From Malaciobacter mytili LMG 24559 (lineage in GTDB: Bacteria; Campylobacterota; Campylobacteria; Campylobacterales; Arcobacteraceae): a DNA stretch of 64,000 nt. Both the position numbers and the translations under genes were made by a program. Shown piece after piece: positions 37,722-44,479 of this stretch. The first letter of the stretch is position 1. Each line of letters starts with the position of its first letter. The DNA is taken from NCBI RefSeq assembly GCF_003346775.1, contig NZ_CP031219.1, positions 1,364,001 to 1,428,000 of the forward strand. The letters are read 5' to 3'. The notes under the pieces are model-generated. The model saw only the letters and a program-made list of their open reading frames with translations, ran no database searches and had not been told where the DNA came from.

Positions 37722-39194
37722 TTAATTTATAGGTAAAGCTATTTTAAATGTTGCTCCACTATTATGATTTTTTACACTAATTTCACCTTTTAAGTGCATT
37801 TCAACAATGATTTTACACGTATATAAACCAAGTCCTACTCCATGCTTAGACTCTTTTGTTGAAAAATATGGCTCAAAGATTTTATCAATTATCTCTTCTT
37901 TTATTCCCCCAGCATTATCACTAATTTCAAAATATATAGTTTTATCAACATAATAGCATTTTAATTTAATTACACCATTTTTTATTTTATTTTTTAAAAT
38001 AGCCTCTTTTGCATTTATTAGAATATTTACTAAAATAGTAGTAAGTTCATTTTTATATGTTCTAAACTCAGGTATCTGCATAATATCTTTAATAAAATCA
38101 ATCTCTTGTGTTTGAGGATCTTTTTTAAAAATCTCAATTGCTTTTAAAACAATATCTTTTGCAATAACTTTAATTTTTTCACTTTTTAATTGTACAAAGC
38201 TTTGAAACTCTTCTATTGTATTTGAAAGCTTTTGTGCATCATTTTTAATATCTTCTAAGGTTTGAATGATTTTTTGTGAATCATTTGCCAAGCCTAAAGA
38301 GAAATCTAACTCTAATTTTTGTGCTCTAATAGAGATGATATTTAAAGGTTGTCTCCATTCATGAGATAACATTTGTAAAGTCTCTGTCATAATTGCAAGT
38401 TTTGATTGTTGAAGTAAAATACTATCTTTTTGTACAACTTCTTTTTGTAAACTTTTTGTTTCAACATCTAAATTAATTTCATTTGTAATATCAAACATTA
38501 GTGAAGTATACCCTGTAATATCCCCGTATTTATTAAATGTTGGTTTTACTTTAATATCAACCCAAAAAGGCGAATTGTTTTTTCTTTTACCTTCAATTCT
38601 TCCTTTCCACTCTTTTTTATTTTTAATAGACTCAAAAATTGAATTAAAAATTTTTTCATCTTCTTCTTTTGCTTTTATAATAGAATGGGGCTTATTTATT
38701 AGTTCATTTTGCTCATAGCCACTTAAAAGACAAAAAGCTAAACTTGCTTTTGTAATAAGTCCTTGCATATTAACATGAGTTGAAGCCACATAGTTATTTA
38801 AAATTTCATCATCAGAAATCTCTTTTGTAATATCTTTTGCATTTATTACAAAAAACTTTTTATTTAACATTGTTGATAGGGTGATTTTTAAATATACCTT
38901 TTGTTTATCTTTTCTAATACAAACAATATTCATATCTGAATCATATTTGTTTTCTAAATTTTTTTTCATTAATTCAACAAAAGGTTTTAAATAATCATCT
39001 TGTATTACAGAAATAAAACTTTTATTTATTAGTTCCTCTTTTGAAAAACCTAAAATAGGAATAAAAGCATTATTAAAATAGATAAATTTACCTTTTAAAT
39101 CAATAATTCCTATCCCATCCCAAGAATTATTGATTATTTCTTTTAGTTCATTATTACTTCTTTTTAATTTAGTAATATCGTACTCTTCTGACAT
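37722..39194 (-). CDS. Multi-PAS sensor histidine kinase (soluble)
   Basis: The 490-residue protein has at least two PAS domains (about 15-130 and 135-245), the second of the Aer-like type with KPHSIIKAKEED replacing the usual NIVRHPD. The kinase core has SHEWRQPLNI as the H-box (near 277) and a lid with DNAGGIK, EPYFSTKESK and GVGLGLYTC. There is no signal peptide or membrane segment. It is divergent from polA with a 65-base gap. No response regulator lies next to it. Confidence 0.88.
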   Translation of the reverse strand: MSEEYDITKLKRSNNELKEIINNSWDGIGIIDLKGKFIYFNNAFIPILGFSKEELINKSFISVIQDDYLKPFVELMKKNLENKYDSDMNIVCIRKDKQKVYLKITLSTMLNKKFFVINAKDITKEISDDEILNNYVASTHVNMQGLITKASLAFCLLSGYEQNELINKPHSIIKAKEEDEKIFNSIFESIKNKKEWKGRIEGKRKNNSPFWVDIKVKPTFNKYGDITGYTSLMFDITNEINLDVETKSLQKEVVQKDSILLQQSKLAIMTETLQMLSHEWRQPLNIISIRAQKLELDFSLGLANDSQKIIQTLEDIKNDAQKLSNTIEEFQSFVQLKSEKIKVIAKDIVLKAIEIFKKDPQTQEIDFIKDIMQIPEFRTYKNELTTILVNILINAKEAILKNKIKNGVIKLKCYYVDKTIYFEISDNAGGIKEEIIDKIFEPYFSTKESKHGVGLGLYTCKIIVEMHLKGEISVKNHNSGATFKIALPIN

Positions 39195-41941: not shown

Positions 41942-41985
41942 ATTGAAAAAAATGTACATTTTTTTTATTTATAAATAATTTTTCT

Positions 41986-42014
41986 TTGACAAATGTAATA
42001 TTTTTTGCTATTAT
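41986..42014 (+). promoter_or_regulatory. Strong sigma70-type promoter for the regulator gene at 42047
   Basis: TTGACA (41986-41991), a 17-base spacer and TATTAT (42009-42014) with an extended TGC form a near-consensus promoter. It ends 32 bases before the start codon. An AT-rich palindrome at about 41947-41966 upstream could terminate polA. Confidence 0.75.
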
Positions 42015-42046: not shown

Positions 42047-42745
42047 ATGTTAAAAACTGAAAAAAATATAAGAAAATTATATAACGCAAAATTACTAGTA
42101 ATTAGTAATGATGACAATGTTAAAAATACAATTGAAAATGAGTTTGATGACTATTTTAAAGAGTTAAAATTAGTAAAAGGTTCTAAAGAGGCAGTTGAGC
42201 TTGCTAGTTCTAATAGTTTTGATATAGTTATTATTGATACGGATGTTAAAGAGTATTCTTTTAGTGAACTTTGTAGTGAAATTACAAGTAGAGCTCCAAC
42301 TTTACCTAAAATTATTATCTCTGATGATGAAGACAGTGAAAATATTATTATAGCTGTTAATAATAGTGCATATACATTTATGTCTAAGCCTTTAAGAGTT
42401 AAAGATATAAAATTAGCAATTATTATGTGTTTAAATCAAACAAAAAGAGGAGATAAAGTAGAGTTTCAAAATGGAATCTATTTTGATGAATATAGAGATC
42501 AATTCTTTAAACCAGGTGGAGTGCTAATAGACTTTACAAGATTAGAAAAATCATTTTTAAAACTTCTTATTCAAAAAAGAGGTGAAATTATTGATTATGA
42601 TACAATTAAAGATGTGGTATGGAAAGGCAAAAATATGTCTATTTATACTATGAGAAATATTGTAAATAAAATTAGGCAAAAAACTTATTATGAAATTATT
42701 AGAAATCACTCTAATAAAGGTTACATCATTGAGGAAAGTAAATAA
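42047..42745 (+). CDS. OmpR-type response regulator with atypical receiver
   Basis: The 232-residue protein has an N-terminal receiver fold (about 15-130). The usual acidic pair is SNDDN, the likely phospho-acceptor is in VIIDTDVKEY, and MSKPLRV holds the conserved Lys. The C-terminal winged helix (about 145-230) has LIDFTRLEKSFLKLL and SIYTMRNIVNKIRQK. Degenerate receiver features suggest it may work independently of phosphorylation, like other orphan regulators of this phylum. No kinase gene is adjacent. A strong promoter is present, so it is probably abundant. Confidence 0.85.
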   Translation: MLKTEKNIRKLYNAKLLVISNDDNVKNTIENEFDDYFKELKLVKGSKEAVELASSNSFDIVIIDTDVKEYSFSELCSEITSRAPTLPKIIISDDEDSENIIIAVNNSAYTFMSKPLRVKDIKLAIIMCLNQTKRGDKVEFQNGIYFDEYRDQFFKPGGVLIDFTRLEKSFLKLLIQKRGEIIDYDTIKDVVWKGKNMSIYTMRNIVNKIRQKTYYEIIRNHSNKGYIIEESK

Positions 42746-42760
42746 TTTTTGAGAGAATAA

Positions 42761-42952
42761 ATGGAAGAAAAAATACTTTCTAAAGAAGAGCTTATTAAGC
42801 TTTTTAAAGATGAGGAAATTGTCGATTCCGGAAAGGGATGGATGATGGGAAACAAAGAGGTCGAAATCATAGCATTGCATGATGTCGACCCAAAATTCCT
42901 TCAAGATGTAGCAAATGCTAAATTTTATAAATTAATCATTAAAGGAAAATAG
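42761..42952 (+). CDS. Small conserved-looking hypothetical protein (63 aa)
   Basis: The 63-residue acidic/basic protein (MEEKILSKEELIKLFKDEEI...) has no membrane segment or metal motif and a GKGWMMGNKEVEII centre. I do not recognise the family. It lies 15 bases after the regulator and two bases before the next gene, in tight co-directional spacing, which supports it as a real gene. Function unknown. Confidence 0.7.
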   Translation: MEEKILSKEELIKLFKDEEIVDSGKGWMMGNKEVEIIALHDVDPKFLQDVANAKFYKLIIKGK

Positions 42953-42954
42953 TA

Positions 42955-43215
42955 ATGTCTCACTGCCCATTTTGTAAAAAAAAGATTGCTATGAGTAAAG
43001 CTTTTTGTTCAAGAAGTTGCAAAGAAAATTACTTTCAATTAATTGCAATTCAAGTACCTAAACCTTTCTTAAAGAGAATTTTTGTTTTTTGTACAAATGA
43101 ACAAAGAGAAAAAGAAATAGAAGAATTTGCAAATAGGCATGGCTGGAGATTAGATCTACTTAAAAATAAAATCAACGAATTAGCAATTGAATATGGGTAC
43201 AGAACAGATTATTGA
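42955..43215 (+). CDS. Small zinc-binding hypothetical protein (86 aa)
   Basis: The N-terminal part has CPFC (residues 4-7), then CSRSC (18-22), a plausible four-cysteine zinc site of the treble-clef kind, followed by a basic helical tail. I do not recognise a named function. AAAGGAAAATAGT provides a ribosome site and the gene overlaps the next by about 23 bases, so both probably belong to one operon starting at 42047. Confidence 0.72.
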   Translation: MSHCPFCKKKIAMSKAFCSRSCKENYFQLIAIQVPKPFLKRIFVFCTNEQREKEIEEFANRHGWRLDLLKNKINELAIEYGYRTDY

Positions 43216-44479
43216 TGATCTTTTAGATCTTAATATCTTAAAAGAGAGTACTCTTTTTTATATTGAAAGTGATAAAAATATCATAAATGAATCTTTAAAC
43301 TTTTTTCAAAAATATTTCAAAAATGTTATTATTTCAAATGATGAAAATAATATTTTTGAATTATTTTCAGCTAATCAAAAAAAAATAGATATTATTTTAT
43401 TTGATTTAGATTTTGAAAAATCAGTTATTTGTGTCTCTAAAATTAGAGAACTTACTACTTTACCTCTTATTTTAACAACAAAACAACTTGATTTTAAAAC
43501 TTTAGAAAAAGTAATACATTATAGAATTGCAGATTATATAATCAAACCTATTAAGTATAATACTACTATTAAGATTTTAAATAATATTTTAGTAGAAAGA
43601 TATAATATAAAACTAATTAAACAGCAAAAAAAAGAGTTAGAAATATATAAAGATATTCTTGATAAAGAGAATTTAATAAGTGAAACAGATTTAAAAGGAA
43701 ATATAATATATGCAAATGATATTTTTTGTGAAGTTTCAGGTTATACTAAAGAGGAGCTAATTGGGCAACCTCATAATATAGTAAGACATCCAGATAACTC
43801 TTCTAAAATTTTTGAAAATATTTGGGAGACTATTCAAAGTGGAAATGTATGGAAAGGTAAAATAAAAAATAAAGCAAAAGATGGAAGTTCTTATTATATT
43901 AAATCTACAATTTTTCCTATTTTTGATGAAGAAGGAAATATAAAAAAATATGTTGCAAGTAGATTCTTAATAACTCAAGATGAAGAAGAAAAGCAGACTT
44001 TAAAAAGATATATTTTACAGCAAAAATCTCAAAAAGTTAGAACAGAGCAGGAGATTGAACAAAAGTACCAAGATTTATTAAAAGAGGCCTTAGAGAGCAA
44101 AGATAAAAAGATTAGTTCATTTGTGTCTGAATTACAAAAAGAGATAAAAATTTTAAGAGGGCGAATAAATGATGATAAAGGAAGAATTTTAAATTTAGAA
44201 CATAAATTAAAAGATTCTGAAAATAATGCAGAAAAAGCCCATGATGATTTCTTAGAAAAAATATCAAAACTTAGAACAACAACTAGAATTAGTTATGAAA
44301 AATATGAAAAATTCAAAAAACTAAATGATAATTTAAAAGAGAAACTATTAAAAGCCCAAGAATCTATTAAAGTATATCAAGAGTACATTGATGAATATAG
44401 ACATAAAATAGATGATTTAAATGATGTAATAAAATCTTATGAAGATGATAAGAAAAAAGCTGAAGCTGCTAAGAAATAG
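43193..44479 (+). CDS. Receiver-PAS protein with long C-terminal coiled coil
   Basis: The protein (428 residues from ATG 43193; a TTG two codons earlier is possible) has a receiver-like domain (about 10-130; FYIESDKN, IILFDLDF, IIKPIKYN). An Aer-type PAS domain with GQPHNIVRHPDNS follows (about 155-260). About 150 residues of charged heptad-rich coiled coil (roughly 275-428) complete it, and there is no kinase, GGDEF, methyl-accepting or DNA-binding output. It may relay a redox signal by oligomerisation. The start lies inside the preceding gene, implying coupling. It ends convergent with lgt, overlapping by eleven bases. Confidence 0.82.
   Translation: MGTEQIIDDLLDLNILKESTLFYIESDKNIINESLNFFQKYFKNVIISNDENNIFELFSANQKKIDIILFDLDFEKSVICVSKIRELTTLPLILTTKQLDFKTLEKVIHYRIADYIIKPIKYNTTIKILNNILVERYNIKLIKQQKKELEIYKDILDKENLISETDLKGNIIYANDIFCEVSGYTKEELIGQPHNIVRHPDNSSKIFENIWETIQSGNVWKGKIKNKAKDGSSYYIKSTIFPIFDEEGNIKKYVASRFLITQDEEEKQTLKRYILQQKSQKVRTEQEIEQKYQDLLKEALESKDKKISSFVSELQKEIKILRGRINDDKGRILNLEHKLKDSENNAEKAHDDFLEKISKLRTTTRISYEKYEKFKKLNDNLKEKLLKAQESIKVYQEYIDEYRHKIDDLNDVIKSYEDDKKKAEAAKK

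Follow-up and report, generated by a model that had tools for sequence, protein, structure and literature searches.

We analysed a window of 64,000 nucleotides from Malaciobacter mytili LMG 24559 (family Arcobacteraceae; genome of 3.04 Mb), the whole stretch running from position 1,364,001 to 1,428,000 of contig NZ_CP031219.1, in which four genes, here called g1 to g4, follow one another on the forward strand (Table 1). They encode an atypical OmpR-like regulator, two small proteins and a receiver-PAS-coiled-coil protein. The gap between g1 and g2 is 15 bases and that between g2 and g3 is 2 bases, while g3 and g4 overlap by 23 bases; a mechanical list of open reading frames starts g4 at a TTG six bases before the ATG used here. 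The original prediction had read this stretch as an operon-like cluster behind a near-consensus promoter, made up of an OmpR-type protein with a degenerate receiver, a second gene of unknown kind, a four-cysteine protein, and a protein that joins a receiver, a redox PAS domain and a coiled coil without an output domain. Our coordinates agree with the tight packing, the layout supports an operon from which we infer co-transcription, and the description of each part is borne out by the results below.

Table 1. Features of the g1-g4 locus, in window coordinates (FAD, flavin adenine dinucleotide).
Feature	Position	Strand	Basis or residues
Predicted promoter TTTGACA-17-TATTAT with extended -10 (TGC)	41985-42014	+	pattern, conservation across g1 upstream regions
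g1, atypical OmpR-like response regulator, 232 residues	42047-42745	+	open reading frame, Pfam, alignment
g2, 63-residue orphan protein, predicted small alpha/beta fold	42761-42952	+	open reading frame, profiles, model
g3, 86-residue four-Cys protein, predicted treble-clef-like with three following helices	42955-43215	+	open reading frame, Pfam, model
g4, receiver, Aer-type PAS and coiled coil, 428 residues from ATG	43193-44479	+	open reading frame, Pfam, alignment
g4 receiver-like domain	43238-43597	+	DD1 kept as E25, DD2 replaced by S26; D, T and K positions kept (window copy)
g4 PAS domain, Aer/MmoS FAD type	43655-43984	+	R198, H199, D201, W211, R257
g4 coiled coil	43985-44443	+	3.5-residue periodicity
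g4 C-terminal tip, I..L..V motif, E next in most	44363-44452	+	common to paralogues

Against three congeneric copies, third codon positions differ most in all four genes, which fits real genes under purifying selection. In the same comparison the synonymous divergence (dS) is about 0.8 or more for g1 to g4, with one g2 value saturated, and the nonsynonymous divergence (dN) is 0.08-0.10 for g1, 0.08-0.14 for g2, 0.05-0.07 for g3 and 0.20-0.34 for g4. Across ten genes of the block compared with their copies in other genera, g3 is the most conserved (median identity 84.8%), followed by glcF (79.7), hemN (78.9), argF (78.0), lgt (72.8), polA (69.0), g1 (65.9), g2 (64.7), a PAS kinase (54.5) and g4 (40.9).

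Our neighbourhood survey covered 37 genomes of the family (G000-G036), 31 of which carry a g1 orthologue, and g2 adjoins g1 in every one of the 31. g3 stands in the cluster in 29 of them; in the other two (G015 and G031) no g3 lies beside g1-g2 and a g3-like gene is found at another place. g4 is next to g3 in 14 of the 31 genomes and not in 17, one of which (G035) has a contig that ends just after g3. The usual order is polA-g1-g2-g3-(g4)-lgt-glcF-hemN-argF, and the g1-g2-g3 carriers with named records include Malaciobacter halophilus, Poseidonibacter lekithochrous, P. ostreae and Arcobacter caeni. Given this pattern, the core set is g1-g2-g3 between polA and lgt, and g4 is, we can say firmly, an optional addition. 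That the four genes form one unit is not supported: g4 is not beside g3 in those 17 genomes and has relatives elsewhere in the same genomes, and on the survey we rejected an obligate four-gene unit. Thus g4 does occur independently of the others, g1 and g3 do so in part, and the link between g1 and g2 survives.

The broader idea that all four genes serve one redox or polarity signalling unit, as first proposed, is in keeping with the packing of g4 in all 14 carriers (distance to g3 of -29 to +6, overlapping in 11), but we consider it highly improbable in view of those 17 genomes, of the dN of g4 set against the 0.05-0.14 of g1 to g3, and of g4 paralogues outside the operon. For a polarity role we found nothing beyond the resemblance of g4 to FrzS described below. 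A midpoint-rooted tree of 48 of the 54 loci (six were dropped for too little sequence, some genomes appear twice under two locus ids, and support values are absent) has all g4 carriers on one side, interspersed with lineages that lack g4, which tentatively points to a single gain followed by three or more losses of the gene.

The core itself is not always complete. g2-g3 stand without an adjoining g1 in four records: L121 (the same place as L198), L185, L192 and L195. Of these, only the genome of L121 (G011) was seen to lack g1 altogether, and record L196, which begins inside the cluster, is uninformative on this point. g3 is found without g1 and g2 in G028 (L137) and in G024, whose contig ends there. 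Relatives of g3 lie at other places in G012 and G029. The gene ahead of g2-g3 in L121 is dapE-like by our own reading of its sequence. Records titled Helicobacter pylori, Sulfurospirillum and Desulfosporosinus (L185, L177 and L197) hold Arcobacteraceae-type g2/g3 clusters or neighbours, and these names of metagenome-assembled genomes look wrong. A gene for a PAS histidine kinase (window 37722-39194), transcribed divergently from polA, has a counterpart in 18 of 35 relatives' loci and could be a further signalling neighbour.

The TTGACA of the predicted promoter starts 61 bases ahead of g1. After removal of duplicates and of L118, L173 and L176, which have too little upstream sequence, 53 distinct g1 upstream regions were compared; all 53 hold a -35/-10 pair at a spacing of 16-18 under a relaxed pattern, and 52 have the extended -10. 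As a control we took the upstream regions of 247 other mechanically called open reading frames of at least 100 residues, set against the 30 usable g1 loci of the first set. The relaxed pattern was found in 30/30 g1 upstreams versus 10/247 others and the strict pattern in 27/30 versus 1/247, that one being the g3 frame of L137; shuffled g1 upstreams matched the relaxed pattern in 5% and the strict pattern in 0.03% of cases. These pattern controls confirm the near-consensus promoter as far above chance. A full -35 together with an extended -10 is conserved across the family, though the strict TTTGACA-TATWAT form occurs only five times in the whole window genome (four times in the reversed control). 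Such a promoter also precedes g2 in L121/L198, L185, L192 and L195, where g1 is not beside g2. It thus looks like a property of the cluster more than of g1, and its placement suggests that g2-g3 are strongly expressed on their own account.

This placement also bears on a rival explanation, in which the genes share a strong constitutive promoter that serves housekeeping-type g2 and g3, g1 is unrelated to them in regulation, and there is no common pathway. The promoter directly before g2 where g1 is absent there favours it, as do the conservation of g3, which resembles that of a highly expressed basic protein, and the case of G028, in which g1 and g2 are gone and g3 remains with a strong predicted promoter kept 224 bases ahead of its ATG (L137:4748-4776). 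We regard this explanation as possible but on the unlikely side, since g2 adjoins g1 in 31/31 genomes and the other 20 gene pairs fall, by a small margin, below g1-g2 in their evolutionary rate correlation. Over 21 loci, with the signal shared by all genes removed, the partial correlation of g1-g2 was 0.60, the highest of 21 pairs; it is a hint only because polA-hemN reached 0.55 and g1-glcF 0.52. A rate comparison in which control pairs are absent gave 0.60 for the g1 receiver and g2, 0.46 for g2-g3 and 0.36 for the g1 receiver and g3 (label-shuffle p = 0.0005, 0.006 and 0.026, respectively).

The g1 protein matches Response_reg with 41.8 bits (cut-off 30.2, E 1.4e-10), and its C-terminal domain is winged-helix-like, although the Trans_reg_C match (E 1.6e-4) remains below the cut-off at 22.1 versus 26.2 bits, yet the alignment spans positions 4-76 of 77. 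In the window copy, S20 and N21 occupy the acidic pair and the remaining receiver residues are D64, S92 and K114. DD1 is non-acidic in all 55 distinct g1 sequences (S, T, G or C), and DD2 is S, N, Q, A or D, acidic in 3 and non-acidic in 52. The phospho-Asp is kept in 53/55 and the Lys in 50/55, and the Thr position holds Ser in 46/55. A recent review defines a pseudo-receiver as a receiver that lacks at least one of DD1, DD2, D, T/S and K, five residues in all (PMC12632262; this and the other papers cited by PMC number are drawn on in excerpt), and by that definition g1 is a pseudo-receiver, or atypical response regulator, because its acidic pair is lost. Across 23 loci the receiver has diverged far more (mean distance 0.72) than the DNA-binding half (0.27).

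Atypical response regulators such as HP1043 and Rem likewise join a receiver without active-site residues to a DNA-binding domain (PMC12632262). g1 differs from these in forming a separate group, here only in Arcobacteraceae, with a 63-residue orphan directly behind it as putative partner; HP1043 was not named among the 10 chains listed for g1 at E <=1e-5, which is a comparison by name and not a direct one. CemR (HP1021/Cj1608/Abu0127) is another orphan atypical regulator of Campylobacteria (PMC11334517), regulated through a cysteine at DD+19 (PMC12632262). We excluded g1 as CemR: none of the 55 g1 sequences has a cysteine at the aligned positions 39 or 40, and Abu0127 is an HP1021 homologue (PMC11334517). 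Other cysteines of g1 are common: Cys76 is present in 42/55 sequences and Cys128, where the receiver ends, in 45/55. RitR uses a single cysteine, which lies in the linker joining its receiver to its DNA-binding domain (PMC12632262). By itself g1 might likewise be a redox switch of the RitR or CemR kind, its dimerisation governed by a conserved cysteine, with g2 and g3 as targets or bystanders. We think this quite unlikely, as the mixture at position 128 (Cys 45, Ser 5, Ala 5) also fits simple packing and the CemR cysteine is absent throughout.

Profiles of g2 and g3 were searched in 397 genomes of the class. The g3 profile matches 42, all within the window's family, and the g2 profile 40, of which 39 are in that family; the sole match outside (E 6e-4, 38 residues in a 225-residue frame) was treated as chance, and neither protein had a match in 23 further genomes of the order. 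By these profiles g2 and g3 are orphan families, almost confined to the window's family among the 397 class genomes. The window copy of g2 has no usable Pfam or NCBIfam match (best NCBIfam row E 0.16). Three families that appear in 1-3 of 37 g2 members (best E 0.005-0.06) were treated as chance, and the g2 profile returned only chance-level rows from PDB sequences. Its predicted structure runs strand-helix-strand-strand-strand (mean pLDDT, the model's own confidence score, 91.4 for the best model and 74.6-86.2 for the other four). Foldseek and VIA-align found no match at E <=0.001 for the g2 or g3 models, the best Z of 3.3 (g2) and 4.9 (g3) being below the meaningful level; a missing structural match proves nothing.

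Some genomes hold extra copies of g2. Two of these lie behind a histidine kinase - response regulator pair (L146:3573-3758 and L147:4535-4720), the former followed by a long gene that reads as haemagglutinin-like and the latter with a short tandem repeat just upstream, and a third (L148:4292-4504) sits between genes that read as an SppA-like peptidase and a radical-SAM-like protein.

The four cysteines of g3 are C4, C7, C18 and C22, and their pattern resembles that of DUF2116, a probable treble clef, from which g3 differs by an extra helical tail. All 42 members match DUF2116 at E <=0.1 (best 7.6e-7), and the window copy scores 24.7 bits, under the gathering cut-off of 26.8. The model (pLDDT 85.3) has a short hairpin and a helix around the cysteines and then three further helices; we infer that g3 binds zinc. 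The tail has a faint helix-turn-helix look, judged from our own sequence reading and from weak matches to three-helix proteins such as homeodomains. In L129:5621-6079, L144:5922-6380 and L182:6001-6456, g3 has 152 residues, and the C-terminal helical part is apparently repeated. The window's own genome also holds a separate g3 paralogue, 69% identical (L149:4400-4651, also L003), which has a thioredoxin/DsbC-like gene behind it by our own reading and, like its relative in L201, a seeming promoter with TTGCAT as -35.

In g4 the receiver match is weak and the PAS_3 match strong (1.9e-17). The phospho-Asp is kept in the window copy and in 17/21 sequences of an alignment that includes the non-adjacent L186, and is lost in some copies. 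The PAS domain matches those of Aer (8dik, 1.4e-28) and MmoS (3ewk, 1.4e-39). Aer requires R57, H58 and D60 for FAD binding (PMC2628428), and W70 and R115 are further contacts (PMC9668731). The first three have their equivalents in R198, H199 and D201 of the window copy, and W70 and R115 correspond to W211 and R257. The g4 PAS would most likely bind FAD and read redox or respiratory state. The roughly 160 residues behind it contain two glycines and no proline, and their hydrophobic periodicity peaks at 3.5 residues. An output domain was not found, only receiver and PAS families being above chance in Pfam, and we found no HAMP, MCP or transmembrane part.

Elsewhere in these genomes we identified 17 paralogues with the same receiver-PAS-coiled-coil layout, 12 of which end in the tip, and the tip is present in 17 of the 19 listed g4 orthologues. 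A tip profile gave 10 strong matches (E <=1.7e-7) in 4 genomes, each ending a frame of this layout. The tip search also added two tip-bearing frames in G000 and G003 (L271 and L272, layout by sequence reading), and the window genome has three tip-bearing members. A second subfamily without the tip comprises five paralogues of 451-457 residues (L234-L238; L234:4261-6549), all of which lie directly behind a CheW gene and a single-domain receiver gene (clusters in five, Pfam on L234 only). These neighbours suggest a link of the tip-less subfamily to chemotaxis. We place g4, which evolves fast, in a wider family of receiver-PAS-coiled-coil proteins.

CetB of C. jejuni, too, is a PAS protein that lacks any further functional domain (PMC2628428). 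g4 could be a chemotaxis or energy-taxis adaptor like CetB, passing FAD-PAS redox signals to chemoreceptor arrays through the tip of its coil, which would suit the Aer type of its PAS domain and the CheW neighbours of the L234-L238 subfamily. That subfamily lacks the g4 tip, however, and chemotaxis genes are not next to g4 in the loci read, so we judge this unlikely. Compared with Aer, MmoS and CetB, g4 adds a receiver-like domain before the PAS and a long coiled coil behind it. FrzS of Myxococcus xanthus has as its two principal domains a pseudo-receiver and then a coiled coil (PMC3158785), and g4 shares the long C-terminal coil; FrzS lacks the phospho-Asp, and a PAS domain is not mentioned in the excerpt of that paper, whereas g4 in the window copy keeps the Asp and loses one acidic partner. 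By the features tested, g4 reads as a cross of CetB (an FAD-PAS without its own output) and FrzS (receiver-like domain plus coil) and is neither.

Taken together, we tentatively favour, at somewhat less than an even chance, a joint reading in which g2 acts as a partner and sets the activity of g1 independently of phosphorylation, g3 is a zinc protein expressed at a high level, and g4 is a later redox adaptor. g1-g2-g3 would be a strongly transcribed three-gene operon of Arcobacteraceae. Its first product would be an OmpR-type DNA-binding protein whose receiver lacks the residues for normal magnesium-dependent phosphorylation. It is therefore probably controlled by some other means, of which binding of g2 would be the most likely. 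Rem, for comparison, is inhibited by binding MirA (PMC12632262). g3, from the same transcript, would be a zinc treble clef with a three-helix tail that possibly binds nucleic acid; almost unchanged as it is, it is probably needed in quantity, in a nucleic-acid- or protein-binding role. One part of the family would have acquired g4 behind this core, and several lineages have probably lost it again. Its coil would pair two copies, and the conserved C-terminal tip may dock on a common partner. On this view g4, optional in any case, would be a redox adaptor riding on the operon and not its heart. A small size is also a feature of the cyanobacterial protein SipA. SipA is a separate factor that connects the NblS pathway with that of NblR and interacts with two kinases, NblS and Hik33 (PMC7760821); we liken it to g2 by description, and SipA differs in acting on kinases.

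Several observations weigh against this joint reading. Because g1 retains D64 and K114, it may still be phosphorylated to some degree, or D64 may serve a structural role. The fold searches returned nothing significant for g2 or g3, and the rate correlation is weak evidence given the g1-glcF value. The four records with g2-g3 but without g1 beside them, and the extra g2 copies in L146-L148, mean that g2 must do something besides serving g1. For g4, the equivalents of the Aer FAD residues are not universal among 20 orthologues (R57 in 17, H58 in 19, D60 in 16, W70 in 18, R115 in 11), and the PAS domains of L271 and L272 are without the Arg-His-Pro-Asp motif by our own reading. In L129 and L182 the tip of the orthologue is incomplete. 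Of the 10 strong tip matches, 7 had themselves gone into the profile, and three weak ones (E 0.005-0.03) fall in other frames. The fullest version, in which a dedicated 63-residue partner sets an atypical OmpR-type regulator alongside a co-transcribed zinc protein and output-less FAD-PAS adaptors signal redox by tip docking only, seems to us improbable as a whole.

A literature search of titles and abstract openings found no description of this operon, nothing for DUF2116, and nothing for Arcobacter with coiled-coil and PAS domain; the view that the combination resembles no nameable pathway stands, none having turned up. A recent review calls the on-off switching of pseudo-receiver regulators a mystery (PMC12632262). 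With one small gene beside g1 in all 31 genomes that carry it, g1 and g2 offer a simple two-protein system for testing pseudo-receiver control, and the tip motif provides a handle for finding the partners of output-less receiver-PAS-coiled-coil proteins.

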